NCBI RefSeq assembly: GCF_013745115.1 | Contig: NZ_CP051151.1 | Coordinates: 682,001 to 746,000 of the forward strand | Length of the DNA stretch: 64,000 bases | Origin: Hujiaoplasma nucleasis | GTDB taxonomy: Bacteria; Bacillota_I; Bacilli_A; Izemoplasmatales; Hujiaoplasmataceae | Direction: 5' to 3' | Shown here: piece by piece, positions 1 to 9,262 of the stretch | Position numbering within the stretch: position 1 is the stretch's first letter | Layout: every line of letters begins with the position of its first letter | The notes under the pieces: generated by a model | Database searches by the model: none | Seen by the model: only the letters and a program-made list of their open reading frames with translations | What the model was told of the DNA's origin: nothing | Position numbers and translations under genes: made by a program

Positions 1-3000
1 ACCTTAATCATTTGCCCTAAATCATTCATAATGTAAATATATTCAGGACTATAAAATACAACTAATCCTTCTACAAAGGCTTCTGAATAAGATTCTAAAT
101 CAGAAAACTCATCTACAGTAATAGCATTTAACTGTGATGTATAATGAATAGTTTCATTAATATCCCCAGCTGTAACTGTAATTGTAATAGCAAAGATTTG
201 GTCACTCATACTATATGTAAAATAGTTTATATCAAAATCATAGTAAGCAAAATTAGGATCATCAAATGACCAAGAAATTTCAGCACCAATCACAGGGTGA
301 TAAGCAGGGATATCTATAGTTTCAAAAACTTGGAAAGTTTTACCATCATAATAATGATGGAACATATCTACTAAAATATCAACCCGTTCTTGATCAGTGT
401 ATTCAGGAATTCTTAAGTCATTACGGATACCTTCATAATAGAACATTAAGCTACCATCAAAGTCACGGTAGATAAAACCACGAATAATCACTTCTAAACC
501 TATATAATCAAATACTTTTTCAAAAGCACCATGACTCATCATCATTAATGGTATTTGATTATTTTCAGTTACAATATAAACCCCATAATCTATTTCACTT
601 AATTGATCTAATAATTGTCCTCTAATTTCTATATATTGACCATATATATGTAAATTATCAAGATTTAAAGCTAATAAATCAGCATCTGTATAAACACTCG
701 GTGAAAGCATTAAATCATTGCCTTTAGAAATAATCTTTTTAACCACCAAATCACCATCAAAGAAATCTAGATAAGTCATTTGATAATCTCTATCATTTCT
801 TACAGCTAATCTAGCATAATCACCAACTTCTAAATAAGGAATATTGTAAGCGTATAAATAACCGCTATCATCTTTTAGTAACATATCCATTTCTGATTTA
901 GAAATAACAATAGCATCAATTAAGAAGACTGAACCAGTCATGTCATCAATCACTTCAGAAATCAAAGCTATATCCATAGGCATCAAAGTCACCATTAAAG
1001 TAAATGTATAAGCTTGGTCATTGATTGTCAATGCAACTTCAAATGGAATCTCAACTTGACTATCTGTATTTTTAAACTGTTGATTAACTGAATCAAAGTA
1101 ATCTTCATATCCTAAGGCAGGTTCATATGAAATGTATTGTCCAAAATATGGCAAGTCTTGAATCATTAAAGTATCACCAGAGAAGAATACTAAGTTGAAA
1201 TTAGATTCAATACTTGATTTAATCAATAAAGCTTTTTCTTCTATACTTAAGGCTAATACAGAATATGATAACATAGAAGCTATAGGCTCATCACCAAAAA
1301 CATCAAAAACAAAGTCTAAAGAAATTTGATTTCCTATATTATTTAAGAAATCTAATTCTGTTAAAGTATCAATCGTATCGTAATTAATCATGATACTTGT
1401 CAAAGATATAGGATCAAATACATAATAATTTGAATCTATTGTTAATAATATACCCTCAATAGAGAAAGTTTCGTACATATTATCAATAGATAAATATTGT
1501 AATTCAGACATAGGAATCGGAGTTATGGTTGGTAATGGTTGATCTGTGCCTATAAGGCCAATATTCAACACATAATCAATCACAGGAATACCATTATAGA
1601 AATTAAGCAATCCAAGAACATTGATTTGATCTCCTACATTATATGGACTATGATCAACATCAATTGCTAAATAACCAGTATCATCAAAAATAAGTAGGCC
1701 AGTGACGCCAGTCTTCATTTTTCCATATATGACACCTGTTACTTGAATTACAGTACCTGCAGGTTGATGAGTTTGATAGAAGATTGAACTTTGATCTGTC
1801 TCATCTATCCACCTTGCATAAAGAATAATATCTTCAGCTGGCATATATGACCAAGAAAAACTAATATTATAAGCAGCGTCCACATACCATCCTGCAAATG
1901 AATAACCTTCTTTAGTTGGTTCAGTAGGTTCAGTAATAACATCTTGATAATAATAAGTATCTGCTAGTAAAGAACTTCCACCAACACTATCATAAGTTAT
2001 GGTATAACTTATCATTGACCAGCCACCATAAAGTACTACATCATTATCTGGATAAGTTGTCCACTCAACTTCTGTGGTTAATTCAGGTTCTAAATACCAA
2101 CCTGTAAATGTTCGTCCAGTTAATGAAGGCGTTGGTAAAGTTAAAGAATCACCACTAAAACCTAACATCAAAGGAACATCATAATCATCTATATCATATT
2201 CAACTGTTACTTTTTTACTCAACCATTTTGCATAAAGAATGATATTTTCAGCTTCAATATGGTCAAATTCATATGGAATACTTAAATCCATATCTTCATA
2301 CCAACCACCAAAAACAAGACCTTCTTTACTAGGATCTTCTGGTTGGTTAATGATACTTCCATAATCAGCTAGAATATCATCGACTAATGAACCACCATTT
2401 TCTTCAAAAGTAATTGAATATTGATTAACCTGCCACTTAGCATATAAAACTAAATTATTAGCAGGCATTAAAGTTTGGGTAAATGCTTGTTCAAGTGCTT
2501 CATCTTCATACCAAGCTAAGAAAGTATACCCTTCTTTTGTCGGTGGGTTAGGTAAAACAATAGTTGCTTGATAATTTAATAAGATTTCTTTGATATTATT
2601 TCCACCATTTTCTTCAAAGAAAATAGAATATTGATTTATTTGCCATTTAGCATAAAGAATTAAATCTTGAGCCGGCATATTAATATCACCAAACTCAATG
2701 TTAAAATCACTATCTTCATACCAACCCATAAACGAATAACCTTCTTTAACAGGGTCATCTGGCATTGGGATAGAAGCATCATAATCTAAAGTCAAATCAC
2801 TAAGTAAAGAGCCACCATTTTCTTCAAAAGTAATGGAATATTGATTGATTTGCCACTTACCATAAAGATTAAAATCTTGAGCAGGCATTTGTGTTAAAGC
2901 GAAGACTTGAGTAAAGTCTTGGTCTGAATACCATGCTTGGAAAGTATATCCAGTTTTAATTGGATTAGCAGGCAGCATAATAACTTCATTATAATCAAAA

Positions 3001-5354
3001 ACAAGTTCATCAATAAGCAATCCGTCCATATCTATGAGTGATACAGTATATTGATTAATTTGCCATTTAGCATATAAAGTGATATTTTCTGCAGGCATAT
3101 AATTATCAGAAAACTCAATGTTAAAATCACTATCTTCATACCAACCCACAAAACTATATCCTTCTTTGATAGGATTAGCAGGAAGAGAAATAGAATCTTC
3201 ATAGAAATAAGTTAAATCATTGATTGAAGAACCACCATTCTCTTCAAAAGAAATGTTGTATTGAATAGGCGTCCATTTGGCATATAAAGATATATCTCCC
3301 ATAGGCATTTGACTTCCAGTAAATGCCACAGTCAATAATTCATCTTCATACCAACCAGCAAATGTAAAACCTACCTTTTCAGGCTGGTACAAATCTAATA
3401 TAGACTCATAATCTACCAATTCTTGCCTAATTAAACCATTAGAAGCACCAGGTATATCTATTTGATAAGGACTGGTATAATGATTAAAGTTTCCTGCCCC
3501 AAAGTGGCCAGTACCATTGGCACCCAATCCATATAATTGATTGTTTGAATCCATCATAAAAGTCGTATCTTTTACAAAGAGATACTTAACAACATCAAGA
3601 TTTATATGACTAGTCATTTCTGTAATTTCGTTTATAGATGAAATTTCATTTCCTAAAGCAAACTGATTATTTGCATTATAACCAAGTACATATATTTTAG
3701 AATAAGCTGTAAAAATTATGGTATTGTTATGATGAACAATAATATCAATAATTTTATCGCCTTCATCTAAGCCTAGTAAATCTGTAATATCAGTTGGTGT
3801 ATATAATGGAAATGATTGATCAACACCAAACTTACCAATACCATCATGGCCAGTAACCATTAATCTACCTTTTTCTGTTAAGAAATAAGAAGTATATTGT
3901 CCAGCTTCTATCTTTATAATAGAATCTTCACTTTCTGTGAAAGTTAGATGGCTATTCAGCAAGGTTGGATTTGTCACGTTCATAATTCCAGAACTTTCCA
4001 AACCTAATTGCCCATTATAAGCCCACCCAAAGCCAAAAATTCTACCAAAATTGGTCATTACTAAAGTATGAACATTACCAAATTGAACATCGATAACAGC
4101 TTCATCTCCTAATAAGTTTAATCTTGGAGTCAAATCATAAGGCGTGTATTGGTGTTCTTGGCTAGCATTTCCAACTTGATAATAAGAGTTATATCCCCAG
4201 ATAAAAACTCTACCATTTGAAGTTATAGCCGCCGAATTATAATAATCACCATCAATCCATAAAATAACTTCATCTTCAGCTAAAGCAAATTGACTTGTAA
4301 TATCTATTGGTGTAAATTGGTTAACATTGTTGCCAACACCTAAGGATCCATATGAATTCTGCCCCCAAGCGAAAATCCTATTTTCACTGGTCATAGCAAA
4401 TAACTGCAAGTAACCACTGATCGATAAGATGACTTCATCTTCATGTAGTGGGAAATAATCATTAATAGCTTGAAAATTAACCCATTGATAATTATTAGTA
4501 TCTAAATAAGTATTACCACTGGCATAGATAGTAAAATCATCCATGAAAATAAATGAAGTATAAGCAGTATTATAGAAATCAACCATAAATGAATCAACTT
4601 CATCAAAATATGAAATTTGATATTGATTTGGCATCCACTTAGCATATAAAATAATGCCATTTAAAGGCATGGTAGAGAATGCATATAAATTGGATAATTC
4701 TACATCACTATACCAACCAGAAAAACTATATCCAGGTCTCTCTGGATGATTAGGTTCAATCAATGGCTCATTGTATAAATCTACAATATCTGGAACTAAA
4801 GAACCGCCATTTTCTTCAAAGACAATGGTATATTGATTTGGTGTATATTTAGCATAAATAGTAACTTCATCAGCTAATTCATCAGAAAACACAAATTCAT
4901 TTTCAAAATTCAATGAATCATACCACTCAACAAAAGTATAGCCATCTTTACTTGGAACAGGCAAAATCACATTTTGACTGTTTTCAGGAAATACCAAAAT
5001 ATTGTTTTCAAGACTACCACCTTGAGCATCTAAATTTATAGTAATTTCCCTTAACAAGGTAGTAGGAACTTCTGTCGTTGGTTCCTCGGTTGTTGGTGCT
5101 TCAGTTGTTGGTTCTTCAGTTGTAGGTTCTTCTGTAGGAGACAGAGTTGTTGGAACTTCCGTAGGCAGTAAAGTCGTTTCCTCTTCACTAGGAAGTTCTG
5201 TTGTAGGTATCTCAGTTATTAAATCACTTGTTTCTTCATCACTGGTGATACCTGTTGGAAAAGTCATATCACTTGGTACAGTTAATCCTTGATCGCATGC
5301 TGTGAGAGTAAGAAAAATCATTAATGATAGAAAAATAAATAAAGTTTTCTTCAT
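1..5354 (-). CDS. Giant surface lipoprotein with InlB-type repeats and RCC1 propeller (3' end outside window)
   Basis: The open frame runs from ATG at 5354 off the window edge, giving at least 1,783 residues. A lipoprotein signal peptide ends in LTAC with the lipid Cys at residue 20. Residues about 45-100 are a Thr/Pro/Glu tether (TEEPTTE type). Two InlB/Listeria-Bacteroides repeats (GWY...LYAKW motif) follow, then about six RCC1-like repeats (residues ~270-625, motifs such as FGWAYNGQLGL), then eight more InlB-type repeats to about 1180. After that come OB-fold-like segments resembling the one in the nuclease lipoprotein at 13890-15803. The start has a GGGAGGG ribosome site. The family role is adhesion or surface binding. 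A catalytic domain may lie in the missing C-terminus; the OB folds make a nuclease possible, but this is inference. Confidence 0.85.
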   Translation of the reverse strand, partial: MKKTLFIFLSLMIFLTLTACDQGLTVPSDMTFPTGITSDEETSDLITEIPTTELPSEEETTLLPTEVPTTLSPTEEPTTEEPTTEAPTTEEPTTEVPTTLLREITINLDAQGGSLENNILVFPENSQNVILPVPSKDGYTFVEWYDSLNFENEFVFSDELADEVTIYAKYTPNQYTIVFEENGGSLVPDIVDLYNEPLIEPNHPERPGYSFSGWYSDVELSNLYAFSTMPLNGIILYAKWMPNQYQISYFDEVDSFMVDFYNTAYTSFIFMDDFTIYASGNTYLDTNNYQWVNFQAINDYFPLHEDEVILSISGYLQLFAMTSENRIFAWGQNSYGSLGVGNNVNQFTPIDITSQFALAEDEVILWIDGDYYNSAAITSNGRVFIWGYNSYYQVGNASQEHQYTPYDLTPRLNLLGDEAVIDVQFGNVHTLVMTNFGRIFGFGWAYNGQLGLESSGIMNVTNPTLLNSHLTFTESEDSIIKIEAGQYTSYFLTEKGRLMVTGHDGIGKFGVDQSFPLYTPTDITDLLGLDEGDKIIDIIVHHNNTIIFTAYSKIYVLGYNANNQFALGNEISSINEITEMTSHINLDVVKYLFVKDTTFMMDSNNQLYGLGANGTGHFGAGNFNHYTSPYQIDIPGASNGLIRQELVDYESILDLYQPEKVGFTFAGWYEDELLTVAFTGSQMPMGDISLYAKWTPIQYNISFEENGGSSINDLTYFYEDSISLPANPIKEGYSFVGWYEDSDFNIEFSDNYMPAENITLYAKWQINQYTVSLIDMDGLLIDELVFDYNEVIMLPANPIKTGYTFQAWYSDQDFTQVFALTQMPAQDFNLYGKWQINQYSITFEENGGSLLSDLTLDYDASIPMPDDPVKEGYSFMGWYEDSDFNIEFGDINMPAQDLILYAKWQINQYSIFFEENGGNNIKEILLNYQATIVLPNPPTKEGYTFLAWYEDEALEQAFTQTLMPANNLVLYAKWQVNQYSITFEENGGSLVDDILADYGSIINQPEDPSKEGLVFGGWYEDMDLSIPYEFDHIEAENIILYAKWLSKKVTVEYDIDDYDVPLMLGFSGDSLTLPTPSLTGRTFTGWYLEPELTTEVEWTTYPDNDVVLYGGWSMISYTITYDSVGGSSLLADTYYYQDVITEPTEPTKEGYSFAGWYVDAAYNISFSWSYMPAEDIILYARWIDETDQSSIFYQTHQPAGTVIQVTGVIYGKMKTGVTGLLIFDDTGYLAIDVDHSPYNVGDQINVLGLLNFYNGIPVIDYVLNIGLIGTDQPLPTITPIPMSELQYLSIDNMYETFSIEGILLTIDSNYYVFDPISLTSIMINYDTIDTLTELDFLNNIGNQISLDFVFDVFGDEPIASMLSYSVLALSIEEKALLIKSSIESNFNLVFFSGDTLMIQDLPYFGQYISYEPALGYEDYFDSVNQQFKNTDSQVEIPFEVALTINDQAYTFTLMVTLMPMDIALISEVIDDMTGSVFLIDAIVISKSEMDMLLKDDSGYLYAYNIPYLEVGDYARLAVRNDRDYQMTYLDFFDGDLVVKKIISKGNDLMLSPSVYTDADLLALNLDNLHIYGQYIEIRGQLLDQLSEIDYGVYIVTENNQIPLMMMSHGAFEKVFDYIGLEVIIRGFIYRDFDGSLMFYYEGIRNDLRIPEYTDQERVDILVDMFHHYYDGKTFQVFETIDIPAYHPVIGAEISWSFDDPNFAYYDFDINYFTYSMSDQIFAITITVTAGDINETIHYTSQLNAITVDEFSDLESYSEAFVEGLVVFYSPEYIYIMNDLGQMIK
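5044..5220 (-). repeat. Thr/Pro/Glu tether-coding repeat in the giant lipoprotein
   Basis: Degenerate repeats of the codons for EEPTTE/APTTE follow the lipobox. The same type of low-complexity linker occurs in three other lipoproteins in this window. It probably spaces the folded part from the membrane. Confidence 0.7.
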
Positions 5355-5568: not shown

Positions 5569-6972
5569 TTAAACCTTAGATTCTTTAATAAAATTTTTAT
5601 ACCAATCTAGAATTTGATCTTCATTCATAGGTCTAGCTATATAAAAACCTTGAATATAATCAATACCTAATTTTTTAGCTTCTTCAAACATTTCTAATGT
5701 TTCTACACCTTCAGCCACAACTTTTAAATTGAATTGATGAGCCAATTTAACAGTAGCTTGAATGATTTGTTTTATTGATTCTTTATCAACTATATGAGAT
5801 ACAAAGTGACGATCAATCTTTAAGAAATCTGTCCTAAATTGACTTAGGTAAGTTAAAGAAGAATAGCCTTTACCAAAATCATCAATGGCAATTTTAATGC
5901 CTGCATCCTTAATAGATTGAATGGTTTTCTTAGAATGTTTTTTTTCTTCTAGTAAGACTGTTTCAGTAATCTCAAAAATCAATAAATCAGTATGTGCTTT
6001 TTCTTCTTCAATAATTTTTATAACCCTATCAAAAAAACCAGGATTTTTAATATTCTTAATAGAAAGATTAATTGAAATATAAAACTTAAAACCTTTTTCA
6101 TATAGCAAATTTTGAGTTTGAATGGTTTTTCTAATAACCCATTCAGTCATAGGGTGTATTAACTGAGTTGATTCAACCAAAGGAATAAAATCATTAGGCA
6201 TAATCAAACCATAATCAGGACTATTCCAACGGATTAAAGCTTCTAAACCAATTAATTTATTAGATTGGGCATCAATAACCGGTTGATACATTAAAAATGT
6301 TTGGTCCTCTTTTAAGGCATTAGGAAATAGACCTAATAAATTAAATTCATATTTTCTAGTTAATAAATCATTATCAAAAATAACATAAGGTAAATTATTT
6401 GCTTTAGCATAGCCAGCAAGTCTATCTGTATCTCTAAAGGGAATAAGCGTTTTACAATCTTTAAATTTCTTAGTTTCACTCACACCAATAGAATAATCTA
6501 CATATATCTTTACTTGTTCTATTTCGATTTGATTAGTTAAACCTTCAACGATTTTTTTACCATCTGAATCTAAATTTTCTAACTTAAAAACAATCCAAAA
6601 TTTATCCGAATCGACTTGAATAACAACAGACTGATCAGGAAGACGATTATCAATATAATCATGCATAGCTTTCATGGCTTGAATATATAAATCTGTCCCT
6701 AAGACTTCAGAGATTCTATTCTTATTATTAATTAATACAGTCGCTATAACGACCTGACCTTGTATATGTTCATCATCTAAAGAAATTAAATAATTAATAT
6801 TTTCAATACCAGTATCTGGTTGATGTAAATACAAAACATCATTTTCTTTAATGATCTTTTTATATTTTTCAACAAAATACCCACTTAAACCACCAATAGC
6901 CATAAATATTATTAAACGGTAAAACCAATTAATGAATTCTTGAGGCTCTCCAGTTTCAACCACCAAAGGCAT
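5569..6972 (-). CDS. EAL-domain c-di-GMP phosphodiesterase, downstream part of a split membrane protein
   Basis: This 467-residue frame has a membrane segment (residues ~18-35), a degenerate GGDEF domain (~45-205, the signature replaced by DSDKF) and a full EAL domain (~215-467). EAL at 244-246, the INLS Asn, EITET, DDFGKGYSS, LKID, EGVET and QGF are all present, so hydrolysis of c-di-GMP is expected. The first codon directly follows a TAA that separates it, in the same frame, from a 74-codon membrane reading frame (6973-7197). The residues on both sides of the TAA read as one continuous membrane domain. The ATG here has no ribosome site of its own, so it is either a broken gene or is translated by re-initiation at TAA-ATG. 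Confidence 0.85.
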   Translation of the reverse strand: MPLVVETGEPQEFINWFYRLIIFMAIGGLSGYFVEKYKKIIKENDVLYLHQPDTGIENINYLISLDDEHIQGQVVIATVLINNKNRISEVLGTDLYIQAMKAMHDYIDNRLPDQSVVIQVDSDKFWIVFKLENLDSDGKKIVEGLTNQIEIEQVKIYVDYSIGVSETKKFKDCKTLIPFRDTDRLAGYAKANNLPYVIFDNDLLTRKYEFNLLGLFPNALKEDQTFLMYQPVIDAQSNKLIGLEALIRWNSPDYGLIMPNDFIPLVESTQLIHPMTEWVIRKTIQTQNLLYEKGFKFYISINLSIKNIKNPGFFDRVIKIIEEEKAHTDLLIFEITETVLLEEKKHSKKTIQSIKDAGIKIAIDDFGKGYSSLTYLSQFRTDFLKIDRHFVSHIVDKESIKQIIQATVKLAHQFNLKVVAEGVETLEMFEEAKKLGIDYIQGFYIARPMNEDQILDWYKNFIKESKV

Positions 6973-7197
6973 TTAAGGACCTAAAAGAATACCACCAATG
7001 AAACCAGCGATCAAACCACATTTAAGGCCAAAAAATATCCCAGCCAAAAGGATAGAAATATACATGGTATGAGAGAAAACATACTTGATACCACCTGTGT
7101 AATATACAAAAAGGTATATGAGTGGAAATGATAATATCAGTATTGCTAGTACAATATACTTATGATACTTACTTATAAAATCTTTAAATTTTTCCAT
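6973..7197 (-). pseudogene. N-terminal membrane fragment of the split EAL phosphodiesterase
   Basis: Seventy-four codons begin at ATG 7197, behind a good ribosome site (AGAGG, 8 nt upstream). They encode two or three hydrophobic segments ending in GGILLGP, then TAA. The next codon is the ATG of the EAL frame, in phase. A single T to A change (TTA to TAA) would explain the break. Reading across it gives an ordinary sensor membrane domain continuing into MPLVVETGEP. A sequencing error, a nonsense mutation, or translational coupling of two polypeptides cannot be told apart here. Confidence 0.7.
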
Positions 7198-7279: not shown

Positions 7280-7304
7280 AAAAAAAAGCACTTAAAAAGT
7301 GCTT
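7280..7304 (-). terminator. Terminator of the ptb-buk operon
   Basis: AAGCACTT and AAGTGCTT form a stem followed by eight T on the minus strand. The hairpin overlaps the first two bases of the buk stop codon (7303-7305). Confidence 0.85.
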
Positions 7305-8373
7305 AATATACTTGGGACTTCTCTTGTTTTAGCATTACACGCATAGCGCCTTCCGCTAAAGATCTCATTTCATCTTCACCTGGATAGACTTTAATAGGCA
7401 TGATTGGGTTGATATGATCTTTTAAATATTTTATGAAATAATCACTATAAGCTATACCACCAGTAATCAATATTCCATCAATCTCGCCCTTAGCAGCAAA
7501 ATACAAAGATCCAATTTCTTTCACTACATTATAAGCCATGGCATCATAATGCAATTTAGCTTCTTGATCACCAGCATTAATTCTTTCTTCAACCACTCTA
7601 GCGTCATTGGTCCCTAAATAGGATACCAAACCCCCTTGTCCAACCAAGAGTTTCTTAACTTCTTCTTTCGTATATTCACCAGAGAAACAAAGGTCTACCA
7701 ATGGATAAGTAGGGATTGTTCCTGTTCTCTCAGGAGAAAAAGGACCATCTCCACCTAGGGCATTATTGCAGTCTATGACTCGACCTTTTTTATGTAAGCC
7801 TACAGAGATACCTCCACCTAAGTGAGTGACAATAAGATTTAAATCTTTATATTCTTTTTTAATATCTTTAGCAAATTGCATGGCAATAGCTTTTTGATTT
7901 AAAGCATGAAATACAGAACGTCTTTCAATTAATTTTTGACCAGAAATTCTAGAAATATCTTCAAATTCATCGATACATACAGGATTAACAATATAAGCAG
8001 GTCGATTAAATTCTTTAGCGAAACCATCAGCTAAAATAGCACCTAAATTAGATGCATGATATCCATACTCACCTGATCTTAAATCCCTTAACATTTCTTT
8101 ATTGACTAGGTAAGTTCCACCATTTTTAAGAGGCTTCATCATACCACCACGTCCAACAAAAACGTCAAAGTCTTTTAATTCGTAATCATGTTCCTTAATA
8201 AAGTCTATAATAACATTTCTTCTGAAATCAGCTTGATCGATGATTGATTTAAAGACTTTTAACTCTTCAACGTCATGTCTTAAGGTTTGTTCTTTCACTA
8301 GTTTACTATTGTAATAAACTGCGACTTTAGTTGACGTTGAACCTGGGTTAATCGCTAAAATTAGATAATCCAT
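7303..8373 (-). CDS. buk: Butyrate kinase (branched-chain fatty acid kinase)
   Basis: This ASKHA-fold acetate/butyrate kinase family protein is about 356 residues, normal length. The N-terminal phosphate-binding motif NPGSTSTK, the central HLGGGISVG and GGDGPFSPERTG, and the late ITGGIAYS are all present. It makes ATP from an acyl phosphate and ADP, the last step of the operon's pathway. The second ATG at 8373 is preferred because GGTGG lies 9 nt before it; the first ATG at 8379 is too close. It overlaps the end of ptb by 26 nt, implying coupled translation. Given the oxidoreductase upstream, the substrates are probably isobutyryl-, isovaleryl- or methylbutyryl-phosphate rather than only butyryl-phosphate (inference). 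Confidence 0.93.
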   Translation of the reverse strand: MDYLILAINPGSTSTKVAVYYNSKLVKEQTLRHDVEELKVFKSIIDQADFRRNVIIDFIKEHDYELKDFDVFVGRGGMMKPLKNGGTYLVNKEMLRDLRSGEYGYHASNLGAILADGFAKEFNRPAYIVNPVCIDEFEDISRISGQKLIERRSVFHALNQKAIAMQFAKDIKKEYKDLNLIVTHLGGGISVGLHKKGRVIDCNNALGGDGPFSPERTGTIPTYPLVDLCFSGEYTKEEVKKLLVGQGGLVSYLGTNDARVVEERINAGDQEAKLHYDAMAYNVVKEIGSLYFAAKGEIDGILITGGIAYSDYFIKYLKDHINPIMPIKVYPGEDEMRSLAEGAMRVMLKQEKSQVY

Positions 8374-9262
8374 TTGCATTCACCACCGCTAAAATAATTG
8401 AATTTAATTTTGCTTCTGCTGTATCAGCTCTTGATGTTAATACAATAGGTACTTTTGCTCCTAAAATAATTCCAGCAGATTTCCCACCTGCCAAAAACAT
8501 ACATGTTTTATAAAAGATATTACCACCATCTAAGTTAGGGAAAATCATAATATCACAATCTCCAGCGACCTCAGATTCAATACCTTTTTGTTTCACTGAT
8601 TCATCAGATACTAGATTATCAATAGCAAAAGGACCATCAATCAAGAAATCAATGTCTTTATCTTTGTAATAATTGACAATTTCTTGAGCGTGAAGGGTTG
8701 ATTCAATTTTTGAATTCACTTTTTCAACAGCTGAAACTAAACCAACTTTTGGTTCTTTATAGCCTAAGGTTCTTGCTAATTCAACAGCTGCTTCAATAAT
8801 CTCTATTTTTTGTTCAACATTAGGATTAATATTCATAGCCCCATCTGTCGCAAAAATAACCTTAGGGTAAGTTGGTAAAGACACAACCCCAACATGAGAT
8901 AATAAATGTGCTTTCTTAATTCCAGTATCAGAATTAACAACTTCTTTTAAAATCAACTTAGTATCAATTAAACCCTTCATAACGATGTCGCATTGTCCTT
9001 GATTCACTAAATTCATAGCAATTAAACTTGCCTTAGAAGGATCCATCTCATGAATAATTTGATAAGGTTTTTGTAAATGATACTTACTAATAAGCTTTTC
9101 TATTTCTACTTGGTCACCGATTAGAACTGGTTCAATAAAACCTTGTTTAGAGGCTCCATATACAGCTTCAATCACATGATCATCATGTGCAAAGACAACC
9201 GCCATTTTCTTGCGGTTGACTTTTTCAGCCAGTTTTGCTAATTCAGCAACTGACTTAAGCAT
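8348..9262 (-). CDS. ptb: Phosphate butyryltransferase
   Basis: A 304-residue protein of the phosphate acetyl/butyryltransferase family. Visible family features are FAHDDHVIEAV near the N-terminus, the central DGAMNINPN stretch and GGKSAGIILGAKVP at the C-terminus. It converts acyl-CoA and phosphate to acyl phosphate, which butyrate kinase uses. It overlaps the 2-oxoacid oxidoreductase gamma gene by 8 nt and buk by 26 nt, so the three are one transcript. Confidence 0.93.
   Translation of the reverse strand: MLKSVAELAKLAEKVNRKKMAVVFAHDDHVIEAVYGASKQGFIEPVLIGDQVEIEKLISKYHLQKPYQIIHEMDPSKASLIAMNLVNQGQCDIVMKGLIDTKLILKEVVNSDTGIKKAHLLSHVGVVSLPTYPKVIFATDGAMNINPNVEQKIEIIEAAVELARTLGYKEPKVGLVSAVEKVNSKIESTLHAQEIVNYYKDKDIDFLIDGPFAIDNLVSDESVKQKGIESEVAGDCDIMIFPNLDGGNIFYKTCMFLAGGKSAGIILGAKVPIVLTSRADTAEAKLNSIILAVVNANGLSNFSD

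Follow-up and report, generated by a model that had tools for sequence, protein, structure and literature searches.

EAL phosphodiesterases with a degenerate GGDEF domain, of the MucR and DosP type, are the closest described counterparts of the protein analysed here, and their catalytic domain is the same, with all motifs. Its domain order is that of YfgF, in which a membrane part is followed by an inactive GGDEF and an active EAL domain (PMC3718329). Shortened forms of such enzymes are also on record. Natural strain variants of Escherichia coli carry truncated YcgG that has lost the N-terminal membrane sensor and kept the EAL catalytic domain (PMC10459773), and a shortened product of the membrane EAL enzyme PdeC of E. 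coli is still an active phosphodiesterase (PMC8846402).

Here we describe a gene of this kind, interrupted by an in-frame stop codon, in strain zrk29 of Hujiaoplasma nucleasis (CP051151), a cultured deep-sea bacterium that is free-living, lacks a cell wall and was sequenced to 491x (PMC10470597). The window analysed is a stretch of 64,000 nucleotides (G000:C1:682001-746000) of a genome that forms a single contig of 1,808,583 bases. Positions given below without a contig name are those of the window.

Structure of the interrupted gene

The minus-strand frame starting with ATG 7197 contains one internal TAA (6973-6975), and the ATG at 6972-6970 abuts it without an intervening codon. On both sides of the TAA the frame is open, exactly as reported in the first-pass annotation of this DNA. 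It runs for 74 codons from ATG 7197 and then for 467 amino acids (5569-6972). TTG 7263 is the start given by the ORF finder; the true start is likely ATG 7197, with GAGAGGAAGG ahead of it. The features of the locus are as follows.

6973..7197, minus strand: N-terminal piece of 74 codons, with three predicted membrane helices of the sensor domain and GGILLGP at its end; weak match to 5TM-5TMR_LYT (E 2e-4)
6973..6975, minus strand: in-frame TAA, in a column that is a sense codon in relatives
6970..6972, minus strand: ATG after the stop, Met in 30 aligned relatives; an ancestral internal Met and possible re-initiation codon
5569..6972, minus strand: downstream frame of 467 amino acids, with the last membrane helix, a degenerate GGDEF domain (DSDKF) and an intact EAL domain
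7303..8379, minus strand: butyrate kinase gene, upstream; together with the next four genes it forms the conserved synteny showing orthology with the gene of the congeneric genome G002

The 467-aa frame matches the EAL domain (PF00563) with E = 2.5e-72 and 243.5 bits, the Pfam cut-off being 31.3. All EAL motifs are present (EALIR, NLS, EITE, DDFGKGYSS, LKID, AEGVE and QGF), in agreement with the initial claim that they are intact, and the set of metal-binding and catalytic residues is complete (E of EAL, N, E, DD of DDFG, K, E of AEGVE and Q). By these sequence criteria, the 467-aa part is a putative catalytic EAL phosphodiesterase. Closest solved structures are those of active phosphodiesterases, e.g. 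MucR and DosP, with MucR 5m1t as the best match (E 1.9e-45). The GGDEF-like domain scores 18.4 bits, under the Pfam cut-off of 23.8, and reads DSDKF at the place of the GG(D/E)EF motif; it thus lacks the signature of an active diguanylate cyclase.

Three hydrophobic helices are located before the stop and the fourth after it (approximately residues 85-110 of the read-through protein). A prediction of low confidence places the break in the loop that joins helix 3 to helix 4. The membrane domain, in its N-terminal part, weakly resembles 5TM-5TMR_LYT and S components of ECF transporters, and none of the MASE models matches it. An AlphaFold model constructed from 4 sequences has a mean pLDDT of 60 (roughly 50 for the membrane domain) and is too weak for fold search. 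A conserved pattern, TGG.KY.YSHTMYIPI..AG...G...G......LGP.MP........Q...NW.YR, characterizes this domain (positions 6860-7197) and its relatives and is found across the order and the class. Only once does the domain exceed a Pfam cut-off, as Thia_YuaJ in one relative (L006; 26.7 against 25.8 bits). It may represent a sensor domain that still lacks a name and is akin to the S components of ECF transporters.

Downstream of the phosphodiesterase gene, positions 3-5354 are occupied by a repeat-rich lipoprotein gene that runs past the window start and encodes more than 1,784 amino acids, among them RCC1-like repeats and recurring modules of the types GG..W..D and W-Y-x-E. G002 has its next conserved gene within ~100 bases at this place, and the sequences point to a lineage-specific insertion or loss. 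Presence of rRNA in the first 5.5 kb was also considered and rejected, since one long lipoprotein gene lies there.

The gene in related genomes

The frame is uninterrupted in G002 (59% identity), and another uninterrupted relative is found in G003 (61% identity). As the G002 copy has the same neighbours, a cluster of butyrate kinase, phosphotransbutyrylase and 2-oxoacid oxidoreductase-like genes, it is the syntenic orthologue. In 30 out of 30 relatives from the order that could be aligned over the region, the stop column contains a sense codon, mostly for Leu, Ile, Phe or Met, and the next codon is ATG (Met) in all of them. Twenty-nine of these relatives are open throughout, and the remaining one, from G007, is stopped at a different column. 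The alignment proposed by the first-pass annotation, which had read one continuous membrane domain across the TAA, shows that the two parts were one protein. Further long single frames were found in a class-wide sample of 395 genomes. Relatives consistently consisting of two genes with a stop at this site were looked for as well, and none was detected among the 30 aligned; class-level matches look like single frames.

Because the Met is ancestral and internal in all aligned relatives, the TAA-ATG junction is not a designed gene boundary. The stop struck the codon directly before an invariant internal Met. An internal stop seemingly shared by G002 (flagged "1 TAA") was rejected, as translation showed it to be the terminal stop of the gene itself; the same applies to L021 and L026. 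Three class-level matches with an identical flag (G144, G376 and G176) extend to the query end, and their stops are probably terminal too.

Good-quality genomes of the family carry the gene in 4 of 11 cases, and those of the order in 12 of 33 (threshold E <= 1e-60); its presence in so few genomes indicates that its loss is tolerated.

Apart from the stop, the zrk29 gene is well preserved. All family-invariant columns (64/64) and all order-invariant columns (34/34) are intact, and Tajima-type relative-rate counts vary with the outgroup, with no consistent acceleration on the zrk29 branch. A private disabling mutation accompanied by intact orthologues is the pattern of a recent pseudogene; zrk29 is the sole genome of its species in the comparison, so that the stop might in principle also be an error in the sequence or a feature fixed long ago. 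Judged from its sequence, the gene would fit both a very recent stop and pieces that are still used. The best explanation is probably that the gene, which encoded a c-di-GMP phosphodiesterase anchored in the membrane, recently acquired a nonsense mutation that is private to the strain or to the species.

Possible products and alternative explanations

Translation from ATG 7197 would stop after 74 residues, corresponding to three helices, so that the full-length sensor-enzyme is most likely gone. Ribosomes terminating at the TAA may restart inefficiently on the adjoining ATG. The predicted product, 467 amino acids long, would keep the catalytic domain intact and have a single membrane helix. 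A short acidic tail, together with the basic EKYKKIIK stretch after the helix, would fit N-out/C-in insertion, which favours a cytoplasmic location of the EAL domain. If made, this protein would be a remnant without regulation; if not, the gene would be a fresh pseudogene. The Shine-Dalgarno sequence at ATG 6972 (-3.6 kcal/mol) is weak and within the range of internal Mets: 80% of gene starts have an equal or stronger one and about 20% of internal ATGs have one as good. Altogether, a protein designed in two parts fits the locus less well than either an ordinary pseudogene of young age or a leftover enzyme that has lost its sensor.

The genome also encodes three other EAL genes, which are intact, and about 20 GGDEF genes. 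One GGDEF gene (L078, G000:C1:1046246-1046914; signature GGDKF) is broken by an in-frame TGA (HDTGD*LLSSF) and has only distant relatives in the genus, of about 30-35%. Nonsense codons are found in 2 of ~22 c-di-GMP genes of zrk29, as compared with ~1 of 486 other sampled orthologues.

The main alternative to a recent mutation is a working split gene, in which TAA-ATG coupling would provide two pieces reassembling in the membrane, or a sensor-free 467-aa phosphodiesterase would be maintained by selection. The direct contact between stop and ATG is in its favour: out of 263 single-base nonsense changes possible in the gene, 3 (~1%) would lie directly ahead of an ATG. This adjacency is mildly unusual and represents one post-hoc coincidence. 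A split gene that is still used would likewise lack further decay, which a young mutation explains equally well. By the low-confidence prediction, the break separates helix 3 from helix 4 in their connecting loop, and this loop is also where the G007 orthologue is interrupted; the next ATG in G007, however, is 9 codons beyond the stop, so the TAA-ATG arrangement is not repeated. Activity of E. coli PdeC without its periplasmic part (PMC8846402) and strong activity of truncated YcgG without the CSS domain (PMC10459773) are consistent with a functional remnant. On the other hand, no two-gene relative was found, the Met is ancestral and the Shine-Dalgarno sequence is weak, and we consider a working split gene unlikely. 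The first-pass annotation had offered re-initiation with two assembling polypeptides alongside fresh inactivation. The former is possible and gained no positive support; the latter is better supported, the stop being private, no relative being split here and nothing else being decayed.

The G007 orthologue itself (L023, G007:C64:26687-28258; 44.7% identity) comes from an incomplete draft genome (79%). Its TAA lies 11 codons downstream of the zrk29 stop column, in the helix 3-4 loop, and replaces a Gln found in all other sequences aligned there; the rest of the gene is intact. The chance that two random stops fall within 10 codons in a gene of such length is about 4%. Clustering may only mean that breaks in this loop are the least harmful ones. 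It seems decidedly unlikely that the loop is a recurrent break point at which independent stops in zrk29 and G007 free the EAL domain from its sensor, with selection of the remnant. If the recurrence were selected, it would represent a route of sensor-to-enzyme uncoupling.

A sequencing or assembly error could produce the same picture, since the whole effect is a single-base difference in the one deposited genome of the species and no other decay accompanies it. As a control, the whole G002 genome was compared with 740 kb of the 1,809 kb zrk29 genome, covering 487 orthologues; antisense shadow ORFs, which filled the raw comparison, were filtered out before counting. Beyond the phosphodiesterase gene, these orthologues hold one clear nonsense codon and one frameshift. 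Only 2 of 8 filtered stop matches were convincing (the phosphodiesterase gene and a transporter gene), the others being located in 5' over-extensions or antisense frames, and no convincing break was found on the G002 side of the comparison. With hardly any other breaks in 487 orthologues the assembly is not error-ridden, and the small number of breaks, together with the 491x depth and the single contig, makes an error at this base unlikely. The two other broken genes are a drug/metabolite-transporter-like gene with TGA at the position of a G002 Trp (L109, G000:C1:803435-803437) and a C1-peptidase-like gene frameshifted relative to G002 near G000:939,850 (L115, G000:C1 ~939,250-940,600).

Decoding of the TAA as an amino acid, by readthrough or reassignment, would agree with a frame open on either side, but it is very unlikely because TAA terminates most genes here (264 of a sample of 397 long ORFs), no suppressor was found among 11 tRNAs in the sampled 740 kb, and the relatives, having a sense codon, need no recoding.

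Comparison with known phosphodiesterases

Bacterial strains commonly carry nonsense variants of c-di-GMP enzymes, and as the case stands, a recent mutation of this kind has little significance. It carries a warning for annotation, as the 467-aa frame should not be taken for a full enzyme that evolved a start of its own. It also offers a small natural experiment on whether a membrane EAL enzyme still works when three helices out of four are missing.

The zrk29 gene differs from those of MucR, DosP and YfgF in being interrupted, and its membrane domain matches no MASE model. In truncated YcgG the N terminus is gone together with the upstream DNA, whereas in zrk29 an in-frame stop separates two parts and all the DNA is still there. 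PdeC is shortened by a regulated protease cut in the protein, whereas the shortening in zrk29 would be due to mutation. Truncated YcgG and processed PdeC show that EAL enzymes can be active without their sensor.
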